From assembly GCA_007695365.1 (NCBI GenBank), contig REDV01000041.1, forward strand, positions 1 through 37,947: a stretch of DNA of 37,947 nucleotides. The letters run 5' to 3'. The notes under the pieces are model-generated. The model saw only the letters and a program-made list of their open reading frames with translations. It did no database searches and was not told the origin of the DNA. Position numbers and translations under genes: made by a program. Position 1 is the stretch's first letter. Each line of letters begins with the position of its first letter. Source of the DNA: Cryomorphaceae bacterium. GTDB taxonomy: Bacteria > Bacteroidota > Bacteroidia > Flavobacteriales_D > SKUL01. Shown here piece by piece: positions 15,501-31,847 of the stretch.

Positions 15501-17578
15501 GGAACTTTGAGCCAGGGTTCGGCTACCACGCCTAAGTCAAGTGCTATCAGGCTGTCGTTGACGGCCAGATCGGCCACCAGTTCACCGTTGTGCAGCGATG
15601 ACTTGAGCGAAACATCCGTAAACATCCAGTGCGTGTAGCTCATCTCATGAATCAGAACATCTACATCGGCGGTGGCTGTTTGTGGGTCAAGTCCCTTTCC
15701 GGTCAGATGGACGTCGGCGCAAAACGGGCCCAGCGTATCGGGTTGATTCAGAAAAATACCTAGTTCAAAAGGGTCTATCAGCAATGTGGCCGTGTACTCG
15801 GGCAGGCTATCGGGGGGCATCAGGTAGCTGGCATCCAGGTGAAGAGTGGCAAGATCGCTTTGTACATCCAGCAAGCAGCTCAGGTCATTGGTTTTACCCG
15901 CCACTATTCCCGAAACCTTTACAAAACGGGGCAGTTGAAATTCGTTGGCAGCTTCACCCATCAAATGCCCCAAATCGTGCTTTCCGGTTCGCAAGGTTTT
16001 GATTTTGATGTCGAACTCGGGTTCATCCTGCGGGTTTAGCAGACTGCCATACACGTCGGCATGGGTTTCCTGTAACGCGTCGGCGCGAAGTTGCTTAATG
16101 CTGATTTGAGACGCATCGCCTTCCAGCAATGCCTGCAACGAAACCGAGGTTCCTGCCATCGAGGCCAGTGTTTCCTGCTCCTTGAGCGATGGCATAAAAG
16201 CAAACAAATCATTCCAGGCAAAGGAGAGATCGGGAAGGTGCAGGCGGAAACGCGACTGCTCAGGGTTGTTCAGTAGTACATCGCGGGTGGGGTAGCCCAA
16301 TTCGAGCGATAAAGCCGCTGAGCTGTTTCCGGTTTGCAGTAATAGGTCGTTGAGAACCAGGGTGTCCGGGCGAAGGTCCAGGTCAAAGCCGAGGTGGCGC
16401 AGCTCAAGGCCACTCTGCTCCTGAAAACTGAGGGCTGACCATCGGAGCGACTGCCGCTCGTCGGAAATATAAATATCCTGAATATCAGCAAGAAGATTCT
16501 GCAAATGGAGGTGGTTGGCGTCAAAACCCGGCGCAGGTGAAACCGCGTGATTGCTGAAAGCGATGTGCTGGTTTTCAATCAACAATTGATTGCCTTCAAC
16601 CCTCCACGGAATATCGGGAAAGGTGAGAAGGGAAGGCTCGTCGGACTCCGCAGAAAGCTGTTCTTCGGGTACTGCGTAGTTGTTTATGTTCACGCTACTG
16701 TGGGCAAGGTGAACTTTGTTGAAACGCACGTGCTGATCTTTCAGACTCACAAACAAGGGCTCCAGTTGGAGTGAGCCGAGGTTGAGCTCAAGGTCGGTGC
16801 TGTCGGGAAGATGTGCATAGCGCAGGTTGATGTGCTCCCAGTTCAAAGCGTCGAGAGTAATTTCCCAGCCCGGTATTTCTCCGCTTTCGTCGTCTTGCTC
16901 AGAAACGGGCGGAAGCCGTAACTGCCGATGTTGAATATCCGTGTGGGCCGTTTCGATGCTTCGGATATGCACGCGTTCTTGTTCCAAATCGAGGCTGTGA
17001 ACCTGCACGCTGAAGTGCCCGAGATTCCACGTGGTTTCCATTCCGCCAAAGTCATCCAGAAACGAGCCCCGTATTCTGTCGAGCCTCACTTTCTGAACAT
17101 CCACTGTCCATGCCGAAGGGCTATCGGGTTCGTCTTTTGGTGGTTCATCGGTGGTGTCAGATGCAAAAGCCTCCGGAATAAAGGAAAAGTTAAAGCGCTC
17201 ACCGTTTTCCTCGCGATGAATACGGGCGGTAACGTCACGCAAGCCCACGTAGTTCACCTGCACCTTGCTTCGGAGAAGTGCAGTCATGGCAATGTCAACC
17301 TTCAGCTCACCCAGGTAGAGCAGGGTATCTTGTTGTTGGTCTTCAACATAAAGGCCCTTGATGACCAGTTCATCGGGAAAAGCGATGTAGATTTTATGGA
17401 GCGTAACAGTGGTTTGAAGCTTGTTTTCAAGGTAGTTGGCGGCTTTTTTCACCACCCAGGTCTGCACAGGCGGCAGCAGAATGGCACCCACCAACAACAG
17501 CAAAAGCATGGTGCAGGCTGCGAGGAAGAGAAGTACAAACCGTACAATTTTGCGAATTACGCCCAATGCCTGCGCCAT
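12518..17578 (-). CDS. tamB: TamB-like translocation/AsmA-type protein
   Basis: This 1686-residue protein has a single N-terminal membrane anchor (about 9-40), then a very long region of beta-strand-rich AsmA/DUF490-type repeats. A C-terminal TamB domain (about 1250-1640) contains the LVYRTVIRRKFELEQGSSIVWLGDPLDARIDF-type block around residues 1390-1425. TamB proteins span the periplasm as a lipid-conducting groove and pair with TamA. The C-terminus is a highly acidic, Glu-rich tail. It is first in a two-gene operon with tamA. The start lies only four bases after a perfect TAnnTTTG, suggesting a leaderless message. Its large size is normal for Bacteroidota TamB. Confidence 0.93.
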   Translation of the reverse strand: MAQALGVIRKIVRFVLLFLAACTMLLLLLVGAILLPPVQTWVVKKAANYLENKLQTTVTLHKIYIAFPDELVIKGLYVEDQQQDTLLYLGELKVDIAMTALLRSKVQVNYVGLRDVTARIHREENGERFNFSFIPEAFASDTTDEPPKDEPDSPSAWTVDVQKVRLDRIRGSFLDDFGGMETTWNLGHFSVQVHSLDLEQERVHIRSIETAHTDIQHRQLRLPPVSEQDDESGEIPGWEITLDALNWEHINLRYAHLPDSTDLELNLGSLQLEPLFVSLKDQHVRFNKVHLAHSSVNINNYAVPEEQLSAESDEPSLLTFPDIPWRVEGNQLLIENQHIAFSNHAVSPAPGFDANHLHLQNLLADIQDIYISDERQSLRWSALSFQEQSGLELRHLGFDLDLRPDTLVLNDLLLQTGNSSAALSLELGYPTRDVLLNNPEQSRFRLHLPDLSFAWNDLFAFMPSLKEQETLASMAGTSVSLQALLEGDASQISIKQLRADALQETHADVYGSLLNPQDEPEFDIKIKTLRTGKHDLGHLMGEAANEFQLPRFVKVSGIVAGKTNDLSCLLDVQSDLATLHLDASYLMPPDSLPEYTATLLIDPFELGIFLNQPDTLGPFCADVHLTGKGLDPQTATADVDVLIHEMSYTHWMFTDVSLKSSLHNGELVADLAVNDSLIALDLGVVAEPWLKVPHATGRLSLHGLDASGAGLAENDMRVRGQTEFSIIGDTLSELLAMIRFDDWDFFSYDKRYHLDSLVMNFSSQTRSTSFSVHSDFMEGSFEGNLAATGIGDAVMRHVRYYYHFGDTIESAKRTDAEFDFSFTFHSTNLLTQVLIPDLERFTPGVIKGSFREQQKHLDVDIRMPETVYAGFHLDSLHIYLRSDSSLFTYDLAFQEAGTEAFSISNFRLYGNLQDQILSTTVSIVDSADYQSLLLSGYFQSIGGRRFEFRLQPDGVIMANEPWQVSEEHVFAFGEGGVWANNLSIAQNHREVKLQSRDTVPNAPLDLSFRRFNLADLASAIDSEGDFVEGKLSGVVAFSYPETGPELEADLNIDQLGYREMIVGDLSLHMENTPIGADLDMHLTGVNNELTLEGSIHREPENEIDIALNIARINLGSFQPFLDDVQDLTGTLTGGIAVSGNPEKPVYDGDITLIETSFFVPLLGVGYSLDKETVSASNAGIRVDKFTLRDDEGKTAIINGMVATHSLTDIVFELDLDMDQFSVLRVAESTDALFYGNAKVNSTVRLRGDLNQPKVRAQASLAKGSSLKLVVPESEARAETAGGINAFVDVHGRYSDVITRKAARDPMTSALQGVDLRANLVLNRETELTLFLDETKDNFIDIQGDADLVFGVDPSGKVTLSGRYEVDRGVYQLVYRTVIRRKFELEQGSSIVWLGDPLDARIDFRATHVVRTDALGLLRDQSPNMSREEMGRYRQELPFEVRLIMTEYLLEPDIGFELGLPDAQRGALGGQVNNRLMFLNQPESESERNKQVFSLLVLGHFLPADPLAGSGRSMASTARSSMADVLNSQIRRVTEEYVKGVDLNLSLDSYEDYTTGQAEGRTQLNVGVSKELFNERITVHVGGSIDLEGDQRRTQNASDLIGDLSVEYKLTPDAIWRLRGYRKNTFEGMIDGEIIRTGVALIFSRSYNATRELFENRRRQEATTQEEEPLPKGEEPEEMEETEQENE

Positions 17579-17582
17579 GCAG

Positions 17583-17590
17583 CAAAGATA
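17583..17590 (-). promoter_or_regulatory. -7 promoter element TATCTTTG, 4 bases before tamB ATG
   Basis: Read on the minus strand the order is TATCTTTG, CTGC, ATG. If transcription starts about five bases after the element, as its name (-7) implies, the first transcribed base is the A of the start codon. Confidence 0.7.
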
Positions 17591-17701
17591 ACCAATGCGC
17601 TGTGGCTTTGGTAGGCCTTTATTTCAATGAAGGAGGCACTGGTGCAAAAAAAACCGCGATTTGCTTTTACATAGAGAAGGCATTATCAATGAGTGGAAAT
17701 A

Positions 17702-17709
17702 TATCTTTG
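17702..17709 (+). promoter_or_regulatory. -7 promoter element TATCTTTG, 4 bases before cysH GTG
   Basis: The order is TATCTTTG, CATC, GTG, with the start codon at 17714. It excludes the ATG at 17693, which lies upstream of the element. It is divergent from the tamB promoter about 110 bases away. Confidence 0.65.
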
Positions 17710-17713
17710 CATC

Positions 17714-18370
17714 GTGAAATTTGAGGAGATACAAAGTTATTTGCAACGCTACACCGAGGAAGGTAAAAAGTGCTTCGTTACTTCGTCGTTTCAGAGTCAC
17801 AGCCTGCCGTTGCTTCACATGCTGAGCCGGATGCCCTTTGAAATTCCGGTGCTGTTTATCAACACGGGATTTCACTTTCCTGAAACACTGACCTTCCGTG
17901 ATGAAGTGGTTGAAACTTTTGGCTTGAAGATGATTGATGTAGAGTCGCTAGTAAACCGCATTGACCAGCGCGACCAAAACGGTCACTTTTACTTTACCTC
18001 TGACCCGGACCGCTGTTGCTACATCAACAAAACCCAGCCCCTGGAGCCTTTTCTGATGGCTTTTGATGTGTGGATAAACGGAGTGCGTGCCGACCAGAAC
18101 GCCAATCGCCGCAACATGCAAACTGAGCAGGAGGCCCCACACAGTGTAACGCGCTTTCATCCCATATTGGATTGGACGGCGCGCATGATTCACGAGTACG
18201 CCAAAGAGCACGAGCTACCACGGCACCCGTTGGAAGACCAGGGCTACCTGAGTGTAGGATGTGAGCCATGTACCCGCAAAACCGACCTGCACGATGATCG
18301 CAGCGGTCGCTGGTTCGGCATGCAGAAAACCGAATGCGGACTACACACTGATTTGATAAAACCATCATGA
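17714..18370 (+). CDS. cysH: APS/PAPS reductase family protein with [4Fe-4S] ligands
   Basis: This 218-residue protein belongs to the adenylyl-sulfate/phosphoadenylyl-sulfate reductase family, which reduces activated sulfate to sulfite with thioredoxin. Cys101-Cys102 (DRCCYI) and Cys183/Cys186 (GCEPC) are the four cluster ligands that mark APS-type enzymes, and ECGLH near the C-terminus (Cys208) is the catalytic motif. The nucleotide loop reads SSFQSHS instead of the more usual SFGAE/D form, a variation to note. GTG at 17714 is preferred to ATG 17693 because of the promoter. No sulfate-activation genes (cysD, cysN) or sulfite reductase are nearby; instead the stop overlaps the start of a sugar-nucleotide epimerase gene (ATGA). 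Confidence 0.87.
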   Translation: MKFEEIQSYLQRYTEEGKKCFVTSSFQSHSLPLLHMLSRMPFEIPVLFINTGFHFPETLTFRDEVVETFGLKMIDVESLVNRIDQRDQNGHFYFTSDPDRCCYINKTQPLEPFLMAFDVWINGVRADQNANRRNMQTEQEAPHSVTRFHPILDWTARMIHEYAKEHELPRHPLEDQGYLSVGCEPCTRKTDLHDDRSGRWFGMQKTECGLHTDLIKPS

Positions 18371-19281
18371 AAATACTGATCACCGGAGGAGCCGGATACA
18401 TCGGCACCGAATTGACCTACGCATTGGCCCAGATGCAGAGCGTAAGCGAAATCTGCGTGTACGACAACCTGAGCCGCGGCAACTACAACTTTTTTTTGGG
18501 CAACCGAAAGCTTCCTTCCAGCAAAGTGCGCTTTGTGCAGGGTGATTTGCTCGACACCCGAAAATTGCGCAAACACGTGGCGGAGTGTAATGTGGTTTTT
18601 CACCTTGCAGCACGCGTAACCACACCTTTTGCCGACGGACAGCCTCACCTGATGGAGCAGGTGAATCATTGGGGAACTGCCGAGTTGGTGCACGCCGCCG
18701 AACTGGCCGGAATAGAGCAGTTTTGGCATGTGAGCAGCGTTTCGGTGTACGGATCTACGAGCGTCCCGGCGGGCATAGGAAGCCCCATCGGTCCACAAAC
18801 CTTTTACGGTATTTCAAAGTTGCGGGGTGAGCAGCACGTTGAGCGGCTTTTGCAAAAAGTGCCGGGAGCCATCCTGCGCTGCGGAAACGTTTATGGCTAC
18901 AGCCGTAGCATGCGCTTTGATGCCATGATTAACCGCTTCATGTTTGAAGCGCGTTTTCAGAAGAAGATCACCATTCAGGGCAATGGCGAGCAACGCAGGG
19001 CTTTTATTCATGTAGATAAGGTGGTCGAGGTGCTTTGCAGTCTGATGCAAAATCCCCCCTCAGGCAGGCTCTACAACGTGGTGGAGCACAATCTGAGTGT
19101 GTTGGAAGTGGCCGAAAGGTTGCACGAATTGTATCCCTCGCTGGAGATGATTTTTGTGAACCAGCACATGCCCATGCGCTCGCTGGAAGTGATACCCGAT
19201 GAAAAACTCAATGAGCGTTTTAATCGCAATCGTCATCTGCGGAATGAACTGGCAGATTTTAAGGAAGCTTTTAGTTTTTGA
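18367..19281 (+). CDS. NAD-dependent sugar-nucleotide epimerase/dehydratase
   Basis: This 304-residue extended short-chain dehydrogenase has the NAD-binding GGAGYIG at 7-13, a Ser at 123/124 in the VSSVSVYGS strand, and the catalytic Tyr147-x3-Lys151 (YGISK). It most resembles the UDP-glucose 4-epimerase/dTDP-glucose dehydratase class; the exact sugar cannot be read from sequence. It starts within the stop codon of the cysH-like gene (ATGA overlap), so the two are translationally coupled, a combination that hints at linked use of sulfite or simply shared control. It is convergent with the thioesterase gene, with a small hairpin in the 48-base gap. Confidence 0.85.
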   Translation: MKILITGGAGYIGTELTYALAQMQSVSEICVYDNLSRGNYNFFLGNRKLPSSKVRFVQGDLLDTRKLRKHVAECNVVFHLAARVTTPFADGQPHLMEQVNHWGTAELVHAAELAGIEQFWHVSSVSVYGSTSVPAGIGSPIGPQTFYGISKLRGEQHVERLLQKVPGAILRCGNVYGYSRSMRFDAMINRFMFEARFQKKITIQGNGEQRRAFIHVDKVVEVLCSLMQNPPSGRLYNVVEHNLSVLEVAERLHELYPSLEMIFVNQHMPMRSLEVIPDEKLNERFNRNRHLRNELADFKEAFSF

Positions 19282-19296
19282 TTGTGGATATTCGGA

Positions 19297-19315
19297 TTTC
19301 AGTGGCGCACTGAGA
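19297..19315. terminator. Hairpin between convergent genes
   Basis: TTTCAGTG at 19297-19304 pairs with CACTGAGA at 19308-19315 (one G-T pair) around a GCG loop. It lies 16 bases after the epimerase stop and 15 bases beyond the end of the convergent gene. No T-run follows directly, so a terminator role is only possible. Confidence 0.35.
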
Positions 19316-19329
19316 AAAGAATGAGATTT

Positions 19330-19761
19330 TTATTCCAATTCCGAAAGCTTCATAGCTGATGTCATAAACTGCCCGCTTCCAATACCGCAGAGCCGGTTTC
19401 GGGCATCGTACAAACGCGACGATGCCAGTACAATGGTGGAGCCGGGTTTTTCTATCACCCCCTCGGCTCGTAATATTCCGCTCTTTACGGGTCGTATAAG
19501 CTGAACCTGAAAGGAGGTAGTAAGTATGAAAAACTCCGTTTGCAGGGAGGAAGCTGCGAAAAACGCCGCATCATCCAGCAGCTTGAAGTACACTGAGCCG
19601 TGCAAACTTTGTCCTGCGTGAAAAAACCTGTCTTCAACCATGTGCTCTATCACCGCTTTACCTTCTTCTAACAGGATGGTCACACCGCTGTATACCTCCC
19701 GATTCACGCGACCCCGCAGGTACATGGTTTCCAAAAAGCGAAAGTGCGATTCCTGATTCAT
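19330..19761 (-). CDS. Hotdog-fold thioesterase (PaaI/YdiI-like)
   Basis: This 143-residue protein matches the hotdog thioesterase fold. The HGSVYFKLLDDAAFFAAS segment (54-71) corresponds to the conserved HGG/HGS plus D/E catalytic helix of the PaaI-like group, with Asp63 or Asp64 as the likely acid. Family members hydrolyse acyl-CoA; the substrate is unknown here. It begins inside the stop codon of the upstream permease gene (ATGA overlap), so the two form an operon. The pairing with a permease has no obvious biochemical logic and may reflect only co-transcription. Confidence 0.8.
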   Translation of the reverse strand: MNQESHFRFLETMYLRGRVNREVYSGVTILLEEGKAVIEHMVEDRFFHAGQSLHGSVYFKLLDDAAFFAASSLQTEFFILTTSFQVQLIRPVKSGILRAEGVIEKPGSTIVLASSRLYDARNRLCGIGSGQFMTSAMKLSELE

Positions 19762-20852
19762 AAGTTTCGGGTAAGGGAACTAACCACTTTGTATTGAGAG
19801 AAAAGCTCCTTGGCTATAATCCGCAGCACCGTGTAGGACGGAATGGCGATAATCATTCCGGTGATACCGTAAAGCGTACCTGCTACGGAAATCACAATGA
19901 AAATTTCAAGCGGGTGTGCGTTTACCACGTTGGCAAAAAGCACTGGCTGAGTAATCATATTGTCAAACAACTGCATGCAGGCAAAAATGACGAGGATCCA
20001 GCCGCTCTTGGGTAAAAGCTCGCTGTAAAAGTTCAAATCGAGGTTGGTGAGCATCACGATAATAACCCCCAAAATGGCGCCCATTACCGGACCGAGGTAG
20101 GGGATGAGATTCAACAGACCGGCCATGAAGCCGATAATCAGGGCATTTTCGATTCCCAGAAAAAACTTGAGCGAAACGCTGATTATGAGTGTTACAAGCG
20201 CAACCTGAATCACCAAACCAAAGCAGTAGCGCGTTAACAGGCGCTTGGTGTTGTCAAGGATTACACGCACGTGGGGCACTTCGGCATCGGGCACCAGCGT
20301 TTCGAGAATGCGCTGCAGCAACATCCCGTCGCGGAGAAAGAAGAAGCCCATAAACAACACAGAAAAAATGGCGATAAAGAGGTTGCCCAGCACTCCGAAA
20401 ATGCTTTGAAATACACTCGAGACCTTTCCGAATTTGAGAATATCGCGGATTTGTGCCCTGAAATAGTGCTCGTCGAAGCGCTCTTCGGTGAGCTCATAGT
20501 CTGCCAGAAATTGCGAAAACCGATTCAGCGGCTCTGCAAATGCGCGGGCTACTTCATTTGCTTCGATGGAAGAAACAATGCGCGCCTGTTGGGCGATAAG
20601 CGGCACAAACAAACTGAAAATGCCCACCACAAAAAGTATCATCACAATCAACACAATCAATGCACTGAGCGAGTTGGGTAATCGAAAGTTCTTGATGCGG
20701 ATTTTGCCCAGAAGGTTCATCAGTGGACGGCCCAGCAGAGAAAGCACCACCGCCAGGATGATGTACACAAAAATGGTACGCAGCTGGTAAACAAGGTAAA
20801 CAGCCAGAACAATCCCCAGGATTGCACCGATAATTCGCAGCACATTTTTCAC
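19758..20852 (-). CDS. AI-2E family transporter (permease)
   Basis: This 364-residue integral membrane protein of the AI-2E/PerM family has about seven to eight hydrophobic segments. These include an N-terminal pair (about 5-80), a long soluble segment (about 95-150), and the family's conserved C-terminal block GFMAGLLNLIPYLGPVMGAILG around residues 244-265. Members export autoinducer-2 or act as ion/proton antiporters; which applies cannot be decided. Start is GTG at 20852. A weak promoter (TAATTTTC, last base off consensus) sits four bases upstream, the same spacing as in other genes of this window. It is co-transcribed with the thioesterase gene. Confidence 0.9.
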   Translation of the reverse strand: MKNVLRIIGAILGIVLAVYLVYQLRTIFVYIILAVVLSLLGRPLMNLLGKIRIKNFRLPNSLSALIVLIVMILFVVGIFSLFVPLIAQQARIVSSIEANEVARAFAEPLNRFSQFLADYELTEERFDEHYFRAQIRDILKFGKVSSVFQSIFGVLGNLFIAIFSVLFMGFFFLRDGMLLQRILETLVPDAEVPHVRVILDNTKRLLTRYCFGLVIQVALVTLIISVSLKFFLGIENALIIGFMAGLLNLIPYLGPVMGAILGVIIVMLTNLDLNFYSELLPKSGWILVIFACMQLFDNMITQPVLFANVVNAHPLEIFIVISVAGTLYGITGMIIAIPSYTVLRIIAKELFSQYKVVSSLTRNL

Positions 20853-20911
20853 CCCCGAAAATTAGAAAAACCAAGGGAATGGTGTGCGGCAACTGAAAAG
20901 TCTTTGTTGGT

Positions 20912-21502
20912 TTAGAAACGCAGCCTCATGCCCATGGGGCTTACTTCAAGATTGTTCAGGATGGGAGAGAGGTTTTTCTTATAATGTCCGCGGTAAATGG
21001 CGTACATCACGGCGTCAAGCACCAGTAGAAATCCGCCTTGCACCATGATGGAATAACCCCAGCCTGTGAAACGGTCTCGCTGGTCGGGCATGCGGTTGGC
21101 CAGCTCGGTGAGAAAAAGTCCGCTCATGATGTAGCCCACGTCCAGTCCGGCGTTGAGGAGGTAGATTTTCTCGGTTCCGTAGTGCCCGTCAACAGTTTGT
21201 TGCCACGATTTTCCCGCGCTTCCTTTGCGCAGACCAAGAAGCCCCACACCGGCAAGCCCTGCGTTCACCACATTCCAGTAAACATTCATTTCGTGAAAAT
21301 GAAAATCGGCACCTGTTGTCTGCGTCATGAACGCACCGCTTACAGCAAAATTTCCTACTGCCCAACCGCCTAAAGCATACATACTTCGTTTGCCGATTTG
21401 GTCTTTTCGTGCGTTGAAAGCATCAATGTCTGACTGCTGCGAAAACACAGGAACCGCAATAAATCCGAAAATGGCGAGTAGAAAAAGTGTACGTGTAAGC
21501 AT
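20912..21502 (-). CDS. Small polytopic membrane protein (DUF6992-like)
   Basis: This 196-residue protein begins at the ATG at 21502, which opens a clear signal sequence (MLTRTLFLLAIFGFIAVPVFSQ); the longer frame from 21565 adds 21 polar residues before it and is rejected. After the signal there are about four hydrophobic segments (near 40-60, 72-90, 118-135, 155-175). The layout resembles an uncharacterised Bacteroidota membrane family that I would place with DUF6992, but I cannot verify this. Its C-terminus is basic. It lies 77 bases downstream of the halogenase-like gene on the same strand and may be co-transcribed. Confidence 0.65.
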   Translation of the reverse strand: MLTRTLFLLAIFGFIAVPVFSQQSDIDAFNARKDQIGKRSMYALGGWAVGNFAVSGAFMTQTTGADFHFHEMNVYWNVVNAGLAGVGLLGLRKGSAGKSWQQTVDGHYGTEKIYLLNAGLDVGYIMSGLFLTELANRMPDQRDRFTGWGYSIMVQGGFLLVLDAVMYAIYRGHYKKNLSPILNNLEVSPMGMRLRF

Positions 21503-21579
21503 GGTATAATGGGTTTTAGAGTTCAACAAGGCAGCTCTTTGATTGTTCGGATGAATCCAACCCACTCCGGAGGTTTGTC

Positions 21580-22833
21580 TTACTTGACGGTGAGGTCGGC
21601 CGGATCAAACCCAAATAGAAAGAACCGCGTCAGAAAACTGTGCAGACCACGGCTGTAGCCACTTCCGTTGATGGCATCACCGGTAAAAACCCGCGACAAG
21701 TGCATTTCAACGTGGGGTGCAATGATTTTACCGACGGGGTTTTTGCTTTGGGCCATTCCCGCGCGATACAAGGTAAACAATCTGCCGTTGTACCACGAGT
21801 CGATCACCCTGCGCCATATTTTTACTTCCCATTTCCAGTCCTGCTCGTAGGCGGCCAAAGCAGATTCTTCACCTCCGGCAGCAATCACATCTGCCACGCG
21901 AAAAGCACTTTTCATACTCAGGTACAATCCCGTTGAAAACACCGGATCAATAAATCCGGCCGCGTCACCGATACATACCCAGTTTTTGCCGTAAAAGCGC
22001 TCGTTGATATTCTGCCAGTTGTTGAATTTCACCACTGGTGTAATGCGTTTTCCGCCCTCTGTAAATTCACGCAGACGCTCATCGCTGCGCACGTAGTGGT
22101 CGTATTGTTCCTCGGCAGTGGTTCCGTGTGCAATGAGGTGGGTTGGGTTAATGACAACCCCCAGCGAAACCCTGTCTTTCAAGGGAATACGCCAATTCCA
22201 TCCGCGCTCCAGGTAATCCACGTGGATATTTCCTTCGTCAATGATTTTCACCTTGTCCCAATGGGCAAAAAGCGCCCAGTCTTTGCGGTCGCCTTCAACG
22301 GTTTTTATCATTTCGGTTCGGGCAATCACGCGCGACCTTCCCGAAGCATCCACAATCCAATCTACGCCATCCTCAAAAAAACCATCCGTTTTCAGCAGGG
22401 TCTGGTTGTCCAGTCCGATGCGGTTGTCATCGAGCCTCACTATACCAGCCGTGTGCGGAAAAACCACACAACCCGCTTGTTTGGCACGTTGCAAAAGGGT
22501 CTCATCAAATTTATCGCGAGGGGTATTGTATGCGTAATCAGGAAGCTTTCCTTTTGCGCGAGAAAAATAGGAAGTGATTGTTTCGTCTTTACTCAGGGTT
22601 ACAGTCGCACCGGGCTTATGGCGACTGAAAGATTTCACTTCTTCTTCCACGCCCAGTTTTCGAAGCATGGGAATCACTGCAGGCAACAATGACTCGCCTA
22701 CGATCAAGGGTGGGCGTTTGCCCGTATGGAAAATTCCCACCTTAAACCCCTTCTCAGCCAGCAAAGTAGCCACCGTACTACCGGCAGGACCTCCTCCGAG
22801 TACAGCTACAGTTTGTGTTCTATTGCCGTTCAT
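21580..22833 (-). CDS. Flavin-dependent halogenase-like FAD oxidoreductase
   Basis: This 417-residue protein has an N-terminal FAD dinucleotide fold (GGGPAGS, 13-19), a GESLLP motif at 46-51, and GDAAGFIDPVFSTGL in the middle, the layout of tryptophan-halogenase/geranylgeranyl-reductase-like flavoproteins. It also contains WNWRIP at 212-217, an exact fit to the halogenase WxWxIP signature. A lysine in KPGA (Lys73) sits in the region that supplies the catalytic lysine in halogenases. A chlorinating or brominating enzyme is therefore plausible, but related Bacteroidota proteins include non-halogenating oxidoreductases. The promoter TAACTTTG lies 21 bases before the ATG and almost abuts the divergent cotH promoter. 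Confidence 0.8.
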   Translation of the reverse strand: MNGNRTQTVAVLGGGPAGSTVATLLAEKGFKVGIFHTGKRPPLIVGESLLPAVIPMLRKLGVEEEVKSFSRHKPGATVTLSKDETITSYFSRAKGKLPDYAYNTPRDKFDETLLQRAKQAGCVVFPHTAGIVRLDDNRIGLDNQTLLKTDGFFEDGVDWIVDASGRSRVIARTEMIKTVEGDRKDWALFAHWDKVKIIDEGNIHVDYLERGWNWRIPLKDRVSLGVVINPTHLIAHGTTAEEQYDHYVRSDERLREFTEGGKRITPVVKFNNWQNINERFYGKNWVCIGDAAGFIDPVFSTGLYLSMKSAFRVADVIAAGGEESALAAYEQDWKWEVKIWRRVIDSWYNGRLFTLYRAGMAQSKNPVGKIIAPHVEMHLSRVFTGDAINGSGYSRGLHSFLTRFFLFGFDPADLTVK

Positions 22834-22854
22834 TTCAATTCTGGTTGGGTGTTA

Positions 22855-22862
22855 CAAAGTTA
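22855..22862 (-). promoter_or_regulatory. -7 promoter element TAACTTTG for the halogenase-like gene
   Basis: An exact TAnnTTTG on the minus strand, 21 bases before the ATG at 22833. Only nine bases separate it from the plus-strand element of the divergent gene, so two polymerases cannot bind at once. Confidence 0.6.
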
Positions 22863-22871
22863 AGGAGTCGT

Positions 22872-22879
22872 TACTTTTG
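22872..22879 (+). promoter_or_regulatory. -7 promoter element TACTTTTG, 4 bases before CotH ATG
   Basis: The order is TACTTTTG, ATGC, ATG, again giving a start codon at the expected transcription start. No recognisable -33 element accompanies it. Confidence 0.6.
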
Positions 22880-22883
22880 ATGC

Positions 22884-24086
22884 ATGAAGCATCGTCAAAA
22901 ACCCAATGCTTTTTTCCACGTTTTGTTCACAACCAGCACGGCGATTGCCTTGCTTCTGGTTTCATCCTGCGCTCGTCCTTCGGCCGGTCACCAGGAGAAA
23001 AACTTCATCGACATTCGTTGCAAAGAGGGGCCATTTCAAAAAAACACGCCTTGCAGGGTGAGCTTTTCGGATGGTACGGTACAAAACGGAAACATTCGGG
23101 TACGGGGTCAGAGTTCGCTCAAATACCCGCGTCAATCTTACAGGATGAAGCTCAACAAGCCGCACTCTTTCTGTGAACTCCCGCAACATAAAACGTGGAT
23201 TCTGAATGCCAGTTACATAGATCGCTCCTTCATCCGTCACCGATTCAGTTTTGAGCTTTTTCGCCGCTCAGCTCCCGACCGTATCGCCCCGCATGGCTGC
23301 TACCAAGAAGTATGGCTCAACGGGCAGTACATGGGTTTGTATTTTGTGAGTGAACGCATTGACCGCGAACGCTGCGGCATATTACCCGGTTACAAGGCAG
23401 GTGGAATGCTGTTTAAGGAGCCGCCCGTTTTTATACAATCTGAGCAAAGCACATCCCGACCAGATGAAAAGTACAGGCAGAAGTTTCCGGGCTTTCCCAA
23501 GCGGAACGCAACCCATGAAATGCGGAAACTGGAGTTGTTCATTCAAAACAGCGATTCAGCTTCATTCAATGACAGCCTGGACTATTGGTTCGACAGATAT
23601 AACCTTACCGATTGGGCGCTGCTGCTGCTTTTTACCAACAACACCGATGGCTTGCTTCGCAATTTTTACCTCTACCGCGTGCACCACGGAGCGCCATTCA
23701 GGGTGGCGGTTTGGGATTACGACGAAACCTTCGGGCGGTTTGGAGATGGGCGCAGAAATGACTTTGAAGAAATGGTGAATTTGCGGGTGAACAGGCTTTT
23801 TGATCGCATGTTGGACTGGACAGACTTTGAAGCACGCCTCGGTAATCGCTGGCTGGAGCTTCGCAACGGCCCCTGGCACCCGGATACAGTGCTGAACCGC
23901 GTGGATGCATTGGTTGCTGATGTGGAACCCTACCTCGAACGCCACGAGCGCATGTGGCCTGCTCAAGGTGGTTGGTTTGCCGACAGCCTCACTTTTGAGC
24001 AGGAAATTGAACTGATTCGCGATTTTACCGCTCGCAACTACGCCAGGCTGGATAGTGTATTCGAAAATAGAAGCCTCTCTTACTGA
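22884..24086 (+). CDS. CotH-type kinase family lipoprotein
   Basis: This 400-residue protein carries a signal ending in LLLVSSC (lipidated Cys29). It has the hallmarks of the CotH atypical protein-kinase family: the NGNIRVRGQSS block (68-78) with YRMKL after it, TNNTDGLLRNFYLYR (251-265), and WDYDETFGR (277-285), whose aspartates bind metal and ATP. CotH of spore formers phosphorylates coat proteins. In Bacteroidota such lipoproteins act outside the cytoplasm on unknown targets. The gene is divergent from the halogenase-like gene with overlapping control regions. Its end overlaps by 7 bases the end of the convergent cytochrome/copper protein. The first ATG is preferred because the promoter is directly upstream. 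Confidence 0.87.
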   Translation: MKHRQKPNAFFHVLFTTSTAIALLLVSSCARPSAGHQEKNFIDIRCKEGPFQKNTPCRVSFSDGTVQNGNIRVRGQSSLKYPRQSYRMKLNKPHSFCELPQHKTWILNASYIDRSFIRHRFSFELFRRSAPDRIAPHGCYQEVWLNGQYMGLYFVSERIDRERCGILPGYKAGGMLFKEPPVFIQSEQSTSRPDEKYRQKFPGFPKRNATHEMRKLELFIQNSDSASFNDSLDYWFDRYNLTDWALLLLFTNNTDGLLRNFYLYRVHHGAPFRVAVWDYDETFGRFGDGRRNDFEEMVNLRVNRLFDRMLDWTDFEARLGNRWLELRNGPWHPDTVLNRVDALVADVEPYLERHERMWPAQGGWFADSLTFEQEIELIRDFTARNYARLDSVFENRSLSY

Positions 24087-25456: not shown

Positions 25457-26001
25457 CCTACTGCCTGGGTTTTATCGGGTTCTATGCTTTCTCCGCGATG
25501 CATGGAGCTAATCGCTTCGTGAAGGTATTCGCGCTCCACCTGCAGTTTCTTCTGCCCGAGGCTGATGGCCCAGTCGTCAATGGCTCCCTGGTACAAAATG
25601 CTTCCATCCGGCCCGCAGAGAAATACCTCGGGCGTGATGGTGGCATTCAAGGTGCGCACAAGGCTCATTTCCGGATCGAGCATCACCGGAAGTTCCAGGT
25701 TGTACTTGCGGATGTACTGCCGTATTTCCGAAACGGGGTAGAAGGTTCCGGCCACCACACCCACAAACAGGAGGGAGTCTGAGGTCCACTCACCCACAAG
25801 CTCATTGATTCTGAGCGCGTAACTCTGGCACAGCGGACATTCGGGCGAGAGAAATACAAACACCACTTTTTTGTCGGCCAGTTCACCCAGCTCAAAGGAG
25901 GAGTCGTCGAGTTGAACCAGTGTAACTTCCGTCCAACGAGGCTTGGAACAGGAAACCGCGAGGAACACAAACATCATAGCAAACATCCACAAATGACGCA
26001 T
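25441..26001 (-). CDS. Redoxin/thioredoxin-like lipoprotein
   Basis: This 186-residue lipoprotein (FLAVSC, Cys18) has a thioredoxin fold with a CPLC active site at Cys55-Cys58 in SPECPLCQSY. The cis-Pro is probably in TITPEVFL. It belongs to the AhpC/TSA-redoxin class. It precedes the cytochrome/copper monooxygenase gene with a 16-base coding overlap; the same kind of pairing occurs in other phyla, so it may serve thiol chemistry or metallation of its neighbour. The C-terminus GCFIE ends in a further Cys. The ATG is four bases after a perfect TATCTTTG. Confidence 0.87.
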   Translation of the reverse strand: MRHLWMFAMMFVFLAVSCSKPRWTEVTLVQLDDSSFELGELADKKVVFVFLSPECPLCQSYALRINELVGEWTSDSLLFVGVVAGTFYPVSEIRQYIRKYNLELPVMLDPEMSLVRTLNATITPEVFLCGPDGSILYQGAIDDWAISLGQKKLQVEREYLHEAISSMHRGESIEPDKTQAVGCFIE

Positions 26002-26005
26002 GTGG

Positions 26006-26013
26006 CAAAGATA
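26006..26013 (-). promoter_or_regulatory. -7 promoter element TATCTTTG, 4 bases before redoxin ATG
   Basis: On the minus strand: TATCTTTG, CCAC, ATG. This drives the two-gene redoxin/monooxygenase operon and predicts a leaderless message. Confidence 0.7.
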
Positions 26014-26638
26014 GTTATTGCGACGCCCATGATAAATGGCCTAAGAAGAATCTCTATGGCAGAACTTTGTGTTTTAGGTTTATCCCAAATTAAGCAATTG
26101 GCCCTGCCAATGCATATTGTGGGTCTATATCCTTTGCGCTCATTGTGGTTAAGCCTTTTTACTGCCAGCCGTGCCGCAGGTTGAAAGGCCTAAGCGTACC
26201 GGGTAAACGTATTTAGAACACCTTGTAAATCAACAATTGCGAATAAGTTTGAATGAGACTTCTCCACTTCGCGTTTCGTACCTCTACGCTTCGGTCGAAG
26301 TGACAAATAGACAAATTATTTGTTACTAGATTGAATTCTATCCCGTTTTAAAGCGTTTGCCCAAGCTTTCAATGATTTTGCCCCGGAAGGCTTCTTTAAA
26401 TCCCAAATAATCCCAAAAGAGCAGCCCTGAAAAGAGGATAGGAAAGTTGCACGATGGGTTAAAGACGGGCGAAAGGTGAGGTGTTTTAGTTGGATACTAA
26501 ACAATTAGTTAGGACGGATTGACTTCCTGGCTCCACGACCTTTCAAACGACTCCAAACACCTTTATAGCAAATATGCAACCACACACTTTGAGAGGAAAT
26601 GACGCGTTTTTACGCTCATCAACTGAAAACCAACATGT
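26014..26638. other. Intergenic region, 625 bp, no gene seen
   Basis: I find no supported gene. It contains one REP-like element (26257-26305) and a perfect small palindrome ACAAAT-T-ATTTGT at 26311-26323. A minus-strand open frame at 26316-26504 has no recognisable features. No convincing promoter for the DUF4349 gene was found near its start. Confidence 0.5.
26257..26305 (+). repeat. Solitary REP-like element
   Basis: It begins AGACT-like (GACTTCTCCACTTCG) and ends TCGAAGTGACA, resembling the arms at 1679-1704 and 1783-1810 but with a longer middle. CACTTCG at 26265-26271 pairs with CGAAGTG at 26296-26302. Confidence 0.5.
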
Positions 26639-27448
26639 ATGAACAATCGAAAATTAGGATTTGCCCGTGGGCGGCTCCTCGCATTGGGGTTGCTTATTGT
26701 TATTGCCGGTTGCGGTGGTAGCGGAGACAGCGCCTATACGGACACTGTTTCGGAGCCGCATGTACCGTCTCAGAAGGCATCTGTGGAAACGCAGCAACCT
26801 CGCGAGAGCAGGATGATCAGAACCGGTCGACTGGTCTTTGAAACCGAAGACCCTTCCGCCACGCGTTCATTCCTGGTAGAGGAAATCAACCTACGGGATG
26901 GCTATATTACCTCCGATGAAACGAGTAAATCGTTAAACCGACTGAGCACCACGCTGGAGGTTCGCATTCCGTCGGAGCAGTTTGGGGGTTTTTTAGAGCG
27001 TGTTTCCGATCATGTAACGAGGTTTGATACCCGCCATATTTCAGCCCGGGATGTTAGCGAGGAATATGTGGACGTGGAAGCCCGGCTCAAAACCAAAAAA
27101 GATCTTGAGACCCGCTATCTTGAGCTGCTGTCAAAGGCTGTGACCATTTCGGAGATGCTTGAGATTGAACACCAGATCGGGTTGCTCAGGGCCGAAATTG
27201 AGTCCATGGAAGGCCGACTGAAATACCTCGACAACAGGGTGTCGTATTCCACGCTGAGCATTACCTACTATGAGCTGACGCCCGAGGAAAAGCGTTTCGG
27301 TTCGCGGTTTATTGTGGCGTTTAAAAGCGGGTGGGACAACCTTATCTCCTTCCTGATTATGATGACCCACATTTGGCCGTTTTTCGCCATCGGTATTGCC
27401 ATTGCGCTTGGCTTTAGCTATTTCGGAAAACGCAAGCGGACGAAATAG
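26639..27448 (+). CDS. DUF4349 domain lipoprotein
   Basis: This 269-residue protein has a lipobox VIAGC (Cys25), a DUF4349 domain from about 58 to 255, a predicted coiled coil near 145-190 (acidic and basic heptads around LEIEHQIGLLRAEIESMEGRLKY), and a C-terminal membrane helix (about 238-260) followed by a basic tail KRKRTK. DUF4349 proteins are found at cell envelopes of many bacteria and their function is not established. A lipid anchor at one end and a membrane helix at the other could tether two membranes or hold a loop in the periplasm. The ATG at 26639 precedes the signal directly. The next gene follows after 102 bases on the same strand. Confidence 0.83.
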   Translation: MNNRKLGFARGRLLALGLLIVIAGCGGSGDSAYTDTVSEPHVPSQKASVETQQPRESRMIRTGRLVFETEDPSATRSFLVEEINLRDGYITSDETSKSLNRLSTTLEVRIPSEQFGGFLERVSDHVTRFDTRHISARDVSEEYVDVEARLKTKKDLETRYLELLSKAVTISEMLEIEHQIGLLRAEIESMEGRLKYLDNRVSYSTLSITYYELTPEEKRFGSRFIVAFKSGWDNLISFLIMMTHIWPFFAIGIAIALGFSYFGKRKRTK

Positions 27449-27550
27449 GAGTATGGAAATGCGCATCATTGGGTAGTTACCTGCGAACGCTCCATTGCAT
27501 TTATGCTTATATTGTGCTGTGTTCTCCTCACAGGGAATGGCACATAGACA

Positions 27551-28129
27551 TTGGCAGACACACTCAGGAAATATGCAGCCCTTATTACAGTGCTCGCCCT
27601 GTTTTCGGATGGTTTTTCACAGTCCGGAATCAGCGTGGAGTCCAACCGGAGCAGCTACACAGTGGGCGACGAGATTGTTGTTGAATATCGCTCCTTGAAG
27701 GGTATCAATGCAGTTGGCGTTCCCGAGGGAAGTGGCTTTGAACTGAGCAGACCCGGCTGGCGGTACATCATCAAGATCGCGGATGCACAAGGCGAAGTCA
27801 CCTTTGTATGGCGTTACCACCTCAGGGCCCTGAAACCCGGCTTGCTCGTAATTGAAAGTCCGGATTTCTGGATGGAAGGCACGCTTCTCAAGGCAAACAA
27901 GCATTTTTTGTTCATTCACGAAAAACCGCTGATTGTGGCGGCCGGAGACCTGCGTGAACTCAAGCTTGCCGATCCGGAAACATTGGGTGAATTACCCATT
28001 CGGTACGTTGTGACCTCAAGCTATGGCTATGTACAGCGCATGTTTCGTGGGCAGTGGCATTTTGCGCGTAAACTCAGTGCGGAAGAGGTGTTGGAGATTC
28101 AGGAAAAGACGTCAGTCCGTAGGCCGTAG
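27551..28129 (+). CDS. Secreted BatD-like protein
   Basis: This 192-residue protein starts at TTG 27551 and has a signal peptide ending DGFSQ (about residue 24). The region SNRSSYTVGDEIVVEYR resembles the first domain of BatD/oxygen-tolerance proteins, which begin with a similar exposed strand, but the protein is far shorter than BatD (500-600 residues) and lacks its transmembrane C-terminus. I therefore call it BatD-like with modest certainty. Neither BatA/B nor MoxR genes are adjacent. Earlier ATG codons are absent from this frame. The neighbours are a DUF4349 lipoprotein upstream and an antiporter 60 bases downstream. Confidence 0.55.
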   Translation: MADTLRKYAALITVLALFSDGFSQSGISVESNRSSYTVGDEIVVEYRSLKGINAVGVPEGSGFELSRPGWRYIIKIADAQGEVTFVWRYHLRALKPGLLVIESPDFWMEGTLLKANKHFLFIHEKPLIVAAGDLRELKLADPETLGELPIRYVVTSSYGYVQRMFRGQWHFARKLSAEEVLEIQEKTSVRRP

Positions 28130-28189
28130 GAACTATATTCAGCATTGGTTTCACCCCAATTGCTACCTTTAGCCACCTTTCACGGAGGT

Positions 28190-30133
28190 ATGCGAACATC
28201 ATTCCTGTTGCTTTTTCTGTTGACGGCTTTCGGGGCTGCCGGTGCGCAAAGCGAGCCGGGGCCTGAAGACTATCGCGTGGAGCTTTCGGCTTTTTCGGTG
28301 AAAGGCATTCCCACTACCGGAACCATTTCGCTGCTCAATGACAGTTTGATGAACAATTGGGGCCAGGGAGCTGTGCCTGCCGTGGTCAACGGTGAGCGCA
28401 GGTACATTGATTTTCAAGGAGGGGAAGGCTCTTTTACCGTCAGTTTCGACCGAAACGAGCCCTTTTCGATACGCGTGGGGCAGTTTGCACACGTGCAGGA
28501 TATGACCCCCATGCCTCTGTGGCTGTCGGTTTTGCCGCCGCTGATTGCCATTGCACTGGCGCTGGTTTTTAAGGAAGTGATAGCCTCCCTGTTTCTGGGC
28601 TTGCTGTTTGGCGCCGGATGTGTGGGCTACTACAGCACGGGCTGGAGCGGTGCAGCGGGTGGGTTTTTCAGGGTGATTGATACCTACATCATTTCGGCAC
28701 TCAACGACTGGGGCCACCTGGCTGTGATTCTTTTTTCGCTCTTTATCGGTGCCATTGTGGCCATCGTCACCAAAAACGGCGGTATGCTGGGTGTGGTGAA
28801 TCGCATTTCGCGATTAGCCAAAACGCCCCGCTCCGGACAGCTTACCACATGGGGAATGGGTCTCGCTATTTTCTTTGACGACTACGCCAATACACTGGTG
28901 GTGGGTAATACCCTGCGGCCCGTAACCGACCGATTGCGCATCTCGCGCGAAAAACTGAGCTACATTGTGGATTCTACCGCTGCACCCATGGCAGCCATTG
29001 CCCTTGTTACTACGTGGATAGGTGCACAGCTTGGCTATATTGACGACGGCTTGAAAATCATCAATGCCGATGAAACGGTTATCGCTTCGGGTAGTTACGC
29101 CGTGATGGTGCAGTCGCTGGCATATTCGTACTATCCCATTCTCACGCTGGTCTTTATTTTTATGCTGGTGTGGATGGGGCGCGATTACGGTCCGATGTAC
29201 CGCGCCGAAGTGGCCGCCCGCAAACGACCCGAGGGTCAGGCGGACAAAAACTACCAGCAAAGCAAGGAACTGGAGGCCCTTCAGCCCGAGGACGGTATCA
29301 ATCTCCGGCCGCTCAACGCCATCATTCCCATTGCGGTGGTGATTTTTGGAACCGTAGCCGGTTTGCTCATTACAGGCTGGGATTCGGCAACATGGGCGCA
29401 AAGCGACACCGGATTTTTCAGAAAACTGGCACTTAACATCGGCGATAGCGATTCATACACTTCGTTGTTGTGGTCTTCGCTTGCCGGACTTGCCACTGCC
29501 ATTCTGCTCACCGTAACCCAAGGCATCATGCCGCTGGGCGACACGCTCGAGGCCATGTTTACAGGTTTTAAAACCATGCTTGGGGCCATTGCTATTTTGG
29601 TGTTGGCGTGGTCGCTGGCGGCCATTACCGAACAGATGCACAGCGCCGATTACCTTACGGGCATCCTCACCGGAAACATTCCTTATTGGTTGCTGCCAGG
29701 ACTTACTTTTTTGCTGGCCGCTTTGGTTGCGTTTTCAACGGGTTCGTCGTGGGGCACCATGGCCATACTCTACCCGTTGATGCTACCACTGAGCTGGTCG
29801 GTTTGCATGGCGGCCGGTTGTGATATGGCAGTGGGGCAGTCTATTTTCTTTCACGTAGTATCGGCGGTGCTGGCCGGCTCCGTGCTTGGCGACCATTGTT
29901 CACCCATTTCCGACACCACCATACTTAGCTCCATGGCCGCGTCGGTGAACCACATAGCGCACGTTCAAACGCAGTTGCCCTATGCGCTCACGGTGGGTGC
30001 TGTGGCCTTTGTGCTTTCGGTTGCAGCGGCACTGCTGCAAGTAAACGGACTGGTTTTTATTGCCCCGGGAGTCCTTGTGTTGTGGCTGGTGATCAGGGTA
30101 GTGGGGAAGGAGGTTGAGGGCAGGGGGCGGTAG
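28190..30133 (+). CDS. nhaC: NhaC-family Na+/H+ antiporter with secreted N-terminal domain
   Basis: From the ATG at 28190 the protein has 647 residues. A signal peptide (about 1-20, ending AGAQ) is followed by an 85-residue beta-rich extracytoplasmic domain and then about twelve hydrophobic segments typical of the NhaC family. The core motif IFFDDYANTLVVGNTLRPVTD (about 224-244) and GDHCSPISDTT near the C-terminus are the family's ion-binding signatures. It probably exchanges Na+ for H+ or organic substrates. A start at 28145 would put 15 residues before the signal and is rejected. A near-consensus TACCTTTA lies 18 bases upstream and GGAGG lies just before the ATG, a rare Shine-Dalgarno-like sequence here. 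Confidence 0.88.
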   Translation: MRTSFLLLFLLTAFGAAGAQSEPGPEDYRVELSAFSVKGIPTTGTISLLNDSLMNNWGQGAVPAVVNGERRYIDFQGGEGSFTVSFDRNEPFSIRVGQFAHVQDMTPMPLWLSVLPPLIAIALALVFKEVIASLFLGLLFGAGCVGYYSTGWSGAAGGFFRVIDTYIISALNDWGHLAVILFSLFIGAIVAIVTKNGGMLGVVNRISRLAKTPRSGQLTTWGMGLAIFFDDYANTLVVGNTLRPVTDRLRISREKLSYIVDSTAAPMAAIALVTTWIGAQLGYIDDGLKIINADETVIASGSYAVMVQSLAYSYYPILTLVFIFMLVWMGRDYGPMYRAEVAARKRPEGQADKNYQQSKELEALQPEDGINLRPLNAIIPIAVVIFGTVAGLLITGWDSATWAQSDTGFFRKLALNIGDSDSYTSLLWSSLAGLATAILLTVTQGIMPLGDTLEAMFTGFKTMLGAIAILVLAWSLAAITEQMHSADYLTGILTGNIPYWLLPGLTFLLAALVAFSTGSSWGTMAILYPLMLPLSWSVCMAAGCDMAVGQSIFFHVVSAVLAGSVLGDHCSPISDTTILSSMAASVNHIAHVQTQLPYALTVGAVAFVLSVAAALLQVNGLVFIAPGVLVLWLVIRVVGKEVEGRGR

Positions 30134-30326
30134 CACTGAGCAAACGGTTGAGCCGATCAACTTCAAATTATCTGTCAAGGTCGTTCCGGTGGGTTTAAGG
30201 CTTTCATCAGAACGGAATTGGGTTTAGGCTTCCCATCTCTGCTTCCATTTTAAAACCACGGAAGATTGGAGTAAGTTGTGCGGATTTTTAGTGGAAGTAG
30301 CACGCAAGGTGGTTTCCACCGGCATC

Positions 30327-30404
30327 CATCGTCTAATTGTCTCATCGTCTAATCAGCCCGTCACCAATCATCTCATCATCTCATTACCACATCATCTCAT
30401 CAAC
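30327..30404 (+). repeat. Degenerate TCTCAT/TCTAAT tandem repeat upstream of glcD
   Basis: Short related units (CATCGTCTAAT, TCTCATCGTCTAAT, CATCTCATCATCTCAT, CATCATCTCATCAAC) fill about 78 bases just before the promoter element. The low-complexity run may be a slippage-prone leader or a binding array. Confidence 0.65.
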
Positions 30405-30407
30405 CTG

Positions 30408-30415
30408 TATCTTTG
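30408..30415 (+). promoter_or_regulatory. -7 promoter element TATCTTTG, 4 bases before glcD ATG
   Basis: Order TATCTTTG, TTCA, ATG at 30420. It excludes the upstream start at 30276, since the 48 extra residues would be encoded by the repeat and promoter. Confidence 0.7.
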
Positions 30416-30419
30416 TTCA

Positions 30420-31847
30420 ATGAAGCCAAACATTGATTCTGAAACCGCAGCTTATACCCTGGTGGACGATGCAGCCATAGCGCAGTTTCAACAAATGCTT
30501 GGGGCAGAGCATGTATTTGAAGATGCCGAAACACGCACCCTATACGGACACGACGAAACGGAAGACCTCAGCTTTCCGCCGGAGGTTGTACTGAAACCGG
30601 AGACGCCTGACGAAATAGCCGCTGTTTTGCGCTATTGTAACGAGCGGCGGATTCCGGTAACGCCCATCGGTGCGCGCACAGGTTTGAGCGGGGGAGCGCT
30701 GAGCCTCTTTGGTGGCGTGGGCTTATCACTCGAGCGACTGAACCGCATACTTCATATAGACACCCAAAACCTCCAGGCCACGGTTGAACCCGGTGTGATT
30801 ACCCAGGTGTTTCAGGAATCCGTTGAAGAACACGGGCTCATGTATGCGCCCGATCCGGCAAGCAGGGGCTCGTGCTTTATCGGTGGAAATATCGCTGAGA
30901 ACTCTGGCGGACCAAGGGCACTGAAGTACGGAGTGACCAAAGACTTTGTGCTGAACCTGGAGGTGGTGTTGCCCAACGGCGAAATCATCTGGACGGGCGC
31001 CAATACCCTCAAAAACTCAACGGGTTACAACCTTACCCAGTTAATGGTTGGCAGCGAAGGCACGTTGGGCATCGTAACCAAAGCCGTGATGAAATTACTG
31101 CCCAAACCAGGCCACAATATGCTGATGCTGGTTCCATTCAACAGCGCTGAAAAAGCCTGCGAAGCGGTTTCGGCCGTGTTCAGGGCGGGTATTACACCAT
31201 CGGCGATGGAGTTTATGGAGCGCGATGCCATTGACTGGTCCTTGAAATACGTGGATGATGTTTCCCTGCCGGTGGGCGAGGAGGTGGCAGCACATCTGCT
31301 GGTGGAAGTGGATGGAAACAATCCGGAACAACTGATGGAAGAGTGCGAGAAGATTAGCGCCTTGATGGAAGATTACGGTGCCACAGACGTTCTTTTTGCC
31401 GATGACGAACAGCAAAAAAACACCCTGTGGAAATTGCGCCGCAAGGTAGGGGAGGCGGTAAAGGCTCATTCAGTATATAAGGAAGAGGATACGGTCGTTC
31501 CGCGCTTTGCACTTCCGGTGCTGTTGAATGGGGTGAAGGAAATTGGAAGAAAATACGGGTTTCATTCGGTGTGTTACGGACATGCCGGCGACGGTAACCT
31601 GCACGTGAACATTATTCGCGGGGAGCTCTCCGAGGAACAGTGGAACGAGACCCTTCAAAAAGGAATCCGCGAAATTTTTGAGCTCACTGCCTCGTTAGGC
31701 GGTACCATTTCCGGTGAGCACGGTATCGGTTACGTGCAACGACCATTCCTCGATGTGGTATTTTCATCTACGCACCGAAACATCTTTCAACAAATCAAAC
31801 AGGCTTTCGACCCCCGTGGTATACTCAACCCCGGCAAGGCAATCTGA
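30420..31847 (+). CDS. glcD: FAD-linked oxidase, GlcD/D-lactate dehydrogenase type
   Basis: This 475-residue flavoprotein of the GlcD/LldE-type family has an N-terminal FAD-binding PCMH domain with PIGARTGLSGGA near residues 80-91 and PDPASRGSCFIGGNIAENSGG near 140-160. The C-terminal FAD-oxidase domain includes the metal-binding YGHAGDGNLHVN motif (about 385-396) and GTISGEHGIGY near 420-430. Such enzymes oxidise glycolate or D-lactate and pass electrons to quinone or cytochrome. The usual partners GlcE/GlcF or LldG are not beside it, so a stand-alone D-lactate dehydrogenase is the safer reading. The start at 30420 is fixed by the adjacent promoter. Confidence 0.92.
   Translation: MKPNIDSETAAYTLVDDAAIAQFQQMLGAEHVFEDAETRTLYGHDETEDLSFPPEVVLKPETPDEIAAVLRYCNERRIPVTPIGARTGLSGGALSLFGGVGLSLERLNRILHIDTQNLQATVEPGVITQVFQESVEEHGLMYAPDPASRGSCFIGGNIAENSGGPRALKYGVTKDFVLNLEVVLPNGEIIWTGANTLKNSTGYNLTQLMVGSEGTLGIVTKAVMKLLPKPGHNMLMLVPFNSAEKACEAVSAVFRAGITPSAMEFMERDAIDWSLKYVDDVSLPVGEEVAAHLLVEVDGNNPEQLMEECEKISALMEDYGATDVLFADDEQQKNTLWKLRRKVGEAVKAHSVYKEEDTVVPRFALPVLLNGVKEIGRKYGFHSVCYGHAGDGNLHVNIIRGELSEEQWNETLQKGIREIFELTASLGGTISGEHGIGYVQRPFLDVVFSSTHRNIFQQIKQAFDPRGILNPGKAI

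Follow-up and report, generated by a model that had tools for sequence, protein, structure and literature searches.

Ribosomes of the Bacteroidia initiate translation without Shine-Dalgarno pairing, which makes their choice of start codons a matter of interest. In mapped Flavobacterium promoters, a TAHHTTTG element occupies positions -12 to -5, and transcription begins 4 to 5 nt beyond it (PMC6847099, PMC9723704). Figures have also been published for messages with little or no leader: leaderless mRNAs account for 5.5% in F. psychrophilum (PMC9723704), leaders of 10 nt or less for 13% in F. johnsoniae (PMC6847099), and leaders under 10 nt for 3.7% in Bacteroides thetaiotaomicron (PMC7366714). 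Leaderless signals were suggested in Bacteroidetes by Nakagawa et al. 2017 (PMC5397173). Zheng et al. 2011 (PMC3160421) took a box near -12 as the mark of leaderless genes, the TA-led genes, in Actinobacteria and Deinococcus-Thermus; their reference was the Pribnow box, and many Bacteroidetes genes were left "atypical."

Element and start codon in the window

The window, the whole stretch of 37,947 nucleotides analyzed here, is contig C41 of the fragmented genome of an uncultured member of the Flavobacteriales (3.52 Mb in 154 contigs); the glcD-like protein shares 90% protein identity with a Flavobacteriales MAG. The initial annotation had described TAnnTTTG followed by exactly four bases and a start codon at tamB, redoxin, CotH, glcD, and a cysH-like gene, together with a near-match before an AI-2E transporter gene with GGGG and GTG. 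All five exact sites read directly as described, and the near-match is likewise present (Table 1). The element was also supposed to be positioned as in characterized Bacteroidota promoters, and this matches the geometry of F. johnsoniae and F. psychrophilum. With only four bases after the element, that geometry makes the initial base of the start codon the predicted transcription start, leaving no leader.

Table 1. Positions of the -7 element and start codon at the six window sites, with one leadered promoter for contrast
Gene	-7 element	Spacer	Start codon	Span	Strand	Remarks
tamB	TATCTTTG (17590-17583)	CTGC	ATG (17578-17576)	17576..17590	-	
cysH-like	TATCTTTG	CATC	GTG (17714-17716)	17702..17716	+	
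AI-2E transporter	TAATTTTC (near-match)	GGGG	GTG (20852)	20850..20864	-	
CotH	TACTTTTG	ATGC	ATG (22884)	22872..22886	+	
redoxin	TATCTTTG	CCAC	ATG (26001)	25999..26013	-	
glcD-like FAD oxidase	TATCTTTG	TTCA	ATG (30420)	30408..30422	+	
divergent gene starting 22833	TAACTTTG			22855..22862	-	Leadered contrast; distance 21, predicted leader ~17 nt; conserved in G001

Pfam assigns these window genes to TamB (PF04357), PAPS_reduct (PF01507, cysH-like), AI-2E_transport (PF01594), CotH (PF08757), AhpC-TSA/Redoxin (redoxin), and FAD-linked oxidase (glcD-like); a search for Rfam families in the window found none. The start codons of tamB, CotH, and redoxin are credible because a signal anchor, holding the protein to the membrane, directly follows that of tamB, and lipoprotein-type signal peptides directly follow those of the other two. 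The bare 8-mer TAnnTTTG occurs 27 times in the window against 22.4 expected, which is no enrichment, and the nonrandom property is the distance of the element to starts rather than its abundance. With four exact ATG cases at distance 4 against 0.47 expected, the window is richer in such sites than is usual for this genome, and the initial annotation thus rested on a favorable sample.

Several further features of this DNA can be recorded here. The tamB and cysH-like genes form a divergent pair, both predicted leaderless, across one short intergenic region (17578-17714), and a second such pair consists of cinA and a gene encoding 301 amino acids (L010; C92, about 176822-176900). A 61-bp direct repeat occupies positions 17-77 and 1583-1643 of the window, its copies 97% identical and 1566 bp apart. 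Positions ~1671-1812 have matches of 79-82% elsewhere in related contigs, and a CTTCGGTCGAAGTGAC stretch at 26260-26320 resembles a dispersed intergenic repeat.

Distance from element to start codon across the genome

Genes were called with a home-made hexamer model holding no promoter information, in 0.69 Mb sampled outside the window. Among the 423 called ATG genes of this sample, 0, 8, and 1 start at distances 3, 4, and 5 from the end of TAnnTTTG, whereas shuffled upstream sequence averaged 0.19 at distance 4, with a maximum of 2. Within 52 nt of the 423 starts, 82 occurrences of the element were counted, against 7.6 in shuffles. A count independent of the start caller, for which every ATG after an element was taken and kept if gene-start-like, gave 1, 12, and 2 at the same three distances outside the window, an excess at 4 over the neighboring distances with a Poisson P of about 1e-6; none of four control words produced a case at 4. 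The sharp genome-wide peak that the initial annotation had proposed to look for is therefore present outside the window.

The distances fall into two groups, a sharp one at 4 and a wide one at ~7-30, with only 2 gene-start-like cases each at distances 5 and 6 against the 12 at 4. The initial annotation had proposed two classes of initiation, of which two classes of distance can be upheld. Such a dip at 5 and 6 is what one would expect if the start codon had to stand at the 5' end. Promoters at distance 4 make up ~9% of recognizable promoters (12/132), in line with the shares published for Flavobacterium.

Raw word counts over the whole genome are 42, 62, and 49 at distances 3, 4, and 5, so that ATG at 4 is only weakly raised (62, where distances 3 and 5 average 45.5; P=0.01) and classification of the words as gene starts is needed. 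All 62 TAnnTTTG-N4-ATG words were accordingly fetched and classified, and about 44 proved to be gene starts (43 by score, plus yidD). At distance 4, GTG shows no excess by raw count (23 against 42 in a backward control); single GTG cases are nevertheless conserved, as at uvrB and the cysH-like gene. Allowing one mismatch in the element added little.

The four spacer bases had been thought free to vary, with only their number conserved, and to differ at each site. This reading finds no support: C is the first spacer base in 21/44 and the last in 28/44, and most spacers are unchanged between species of the genus. Leadered promoters also favor C after TTTG (29/62), which is why the preference looks like part of the promoter. 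A -33 TTG, tried at only one fixed spacing with the distance-4 word, gave 1 match, the same as the control; in F. johnsoniae, the -33 element is weak (PMC6847099). In a search of the open reading frame for a special translation signal, predicted leaderless starts had slightly more structure and a lower A content than leadered ones; since GC content differs too, we draw no conclusion from this.

Conservation and membership of the distance-4 set

A second species of the genus (G001; genome 81% complete) has ~84% DNA identity to the window genes and keeps the four-base spacing at every one of them. The sites of tamB (on its contig C111), CotH, redoxin, glcD, and AI-2E are identical to the letter, and at the cysH-like gene the spacer has changed from CATC to CCGC with the 8-mer, the spacing, and GTG kept. 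The glcD site is identical in both G001 and a further locus (L052); there, the sequence can be aligned only from ~21 bp before the start codon onward. Raw word counts in G001 are 25, 55, and 32 at distances 3, 4, and 5. The whole word is common to G001 at 22/43 scored gene starts against 1/19 of the other words (P=0.0005). Conversely, 20 of the first 30 G001 words precede orthologues that have the same arrangement here and align from residue 1; 12 of these pairs are identical, 8 have changed spacer or element letters, and the spacing is 4 in all. These 20 orthologue pairs indicate that the exact spacing is kept by selection in relatives. Even the start codon may be exchanged at constant distance: a CopA-like copper ATPase begins with ATG here (L231, G000 C125) and with GTG in G001 (L370), both at distance 4. 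At uvrB, both species have a GTG start at this distance.

The arrangement extends beyond the genus, where related species are nonindependent samples. In two genomes from other families of the same order, gene-start-like counts at distances 3, 4, and 5 are 1, 9, and 2 (G019) and 0, 6, and 6 (G002), with 4 and 5 equally common in the latter. For glcD, 26 of 110 Bacteroidota loci have the element at distance 4, in Flavobacteriales and Chitinophaga, many of these loci being closely related. For holB (DNA polymerase III delta'), 10 of 26 Bacteroidia genomes, belonging to several families, have the element at exactly 4 (L372, L373, L374, L378, L380, L384, L388, L389, L394, and L396), though the window's own genome does not. 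For mnmA, the distance is 4 in three Flavobacteriales and 17-29, hence leadered, in several relatives of the class. Predicted leaderless status is thus not fixed per gene, as mnmA and holB illustrate, and the mixed distances for glcD, holB, and mnmA suggest that the arrangement is old and recurrent, with single genes gaining and losing it.

Among the members of the distance-4 set in the window's genome are uvrC, guaA, mnmA, rsgA, recR, lpxD, moaA, cinA, tatC, bamD, pyrE, and rmlD. DNA-repair genes at this distance are uvrB (L282), uvrC (L230:6184-7974), recR (L210:2348-2968), and a uvrD/pcrA-type helicase (L349), the last named from its sequence only; uvrB and the helicase gene have GTG starts, each with the element exactly four bases before. 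A functional bias of the predicted leaderless set to DNA repair is possible, and as it was noticed afterwards, we offer it as a lead only. It could be speculated, and we hold it to be rather unlikely, that an old, recurrent leaderless set of the Bacteroidia is enriched in replication and repair (holB in several families; uvrB, uvrC, the uvrD/pcrA-type helicase, and recR in this genus) and is kept so that its translation avoids the route that needs a leader and can be tuned on its own, for instance, under stress.

Predicted leaderless initiation and its relation to known systems

The reading that we consider very probable, as predicted from DNA, is that these are ordinary primary-sigma (sigma-A/ABfr) promoters in which exactly four bases separate TAnnTTTG from the start codon, so that the mRNAs would carry no leader. 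It draws on the spacing peak, on conservation within the genus, on the matching start codons of orthologues, and on the presence of the arrangement in other families; where precisely transcription begins, and that translation proceeds from the 5' end, are what we infer within that explanation. RNA polymerase would begin on the first base of AUG or GUG, and the ribosome would have to recognize a 5'-terminal start codon. A small class at exact spacing would then be under selection beside a larger leadered class with leaders of about 3 to 26 nt. For leaderless messages of other organisms the translation route is known, and the messages predicted here may be translated in the same way.

Three other explanations were weighed against this one. 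That TAnnTTTG is simply common in this DNA and that five coincidences were picked would agree with the unenriched 8-mer in the window and with window cases in excess of the genome-average prediction, and yet the peak at 4 recurs beyond the window and in two further genomes, none appears with control words, and orthologues keep the spacing. We therefore reject chance coincidence, on the control words, the shuffles, and the conservation in orthologues, and regard it as scarcely credible. It is also conceivable that the true starts are downstream ATGs with short leaders and that the ATG at distance 4 goes unused, as some proteins have a second ATG a few codons in (guaA begins MPEMILILDFGSQ). This is very unlikely: the conserved N terminus of mnmA, uvrB, cinA, and recR begins at the distance-4 codon, as do the lipoprotein and anchor sequences, the 20 orthologue pairs match from their first residue onward, and chance ATGs would give no peak at 4.

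Less improbable than either, and still unlikely in our view, is that the element is real and transcription usually begins 1-3 nt away from the predicted position, or most of the message comes from another promoter farther upstream, so that leaderless transcripts are minor. Bacterial genes commonly have several promoters, and G002 shows distances 4 and 5 equally. In F. johnsoniae, promoters use a spacing of 4 or 5 nt (PMC6847099), so that a leader of -1 to +1 nt is indistinguishable from zero here. The depletion of distances 5 and 6 in the window's genome nevertheless agrees with transcription that begins right at the start codon.

Several uses would follow if these promoters do give leaderless messages. 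The rule of an element plus exactly four bases can be read from DNA and predicts leaderless genes without RNA data; it also helps to correct the annotation of start codons, GUG starts included. Furthermore, it names holB and uvrB as candidates for tests of leaderless translation in Flavobacterium.

When placed beside the TA-led genes of Zheng et al. (PMC3160421), the predicted set is alike in having a promoter box of the -10 type ~10-12 bp before the start codon, and differs in that those genes carry a TAnnnT box and represent >20% of genes. The leaderless richness of the Deinococcus/Actinobacteria type is far from that seen here, with ~44 exact-word ATG genes in 3.5 Mb. A second comparison is with the leadered, non-Shine-Dalgarno initiation of Bacteroidia, which has an A-rich, Kozak-like upstream region (PMC6847099). 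A enrichment also appears around -13 to -9 in the genes of this genome overall, whereas distance-4 genes have the promoter in that place and are predicted to have no transcribed upstream sequence.

The closest likeness is to Flavobacterium and B. thetaiotaomicron, which belong to the same phylum, use the same TAnnTTTG, and have a minority of leaderless messages or very short leaders; theirs are RNA-mapped, and the set presented here is read from DNA. The excerpted text of the accounts of F. johnsoniae, F. psychrophilum, and B. thetaiotaomicron describes no exact-spacing peak, between-species conservation, or stable gene set. Leaderless mRNAs as a kind have thus been reported before in this phylum; new relative to these accounts are the sharpness of the spacing, its conservation, including the exchange of AUG and GUG, and the gene specificity of the set.
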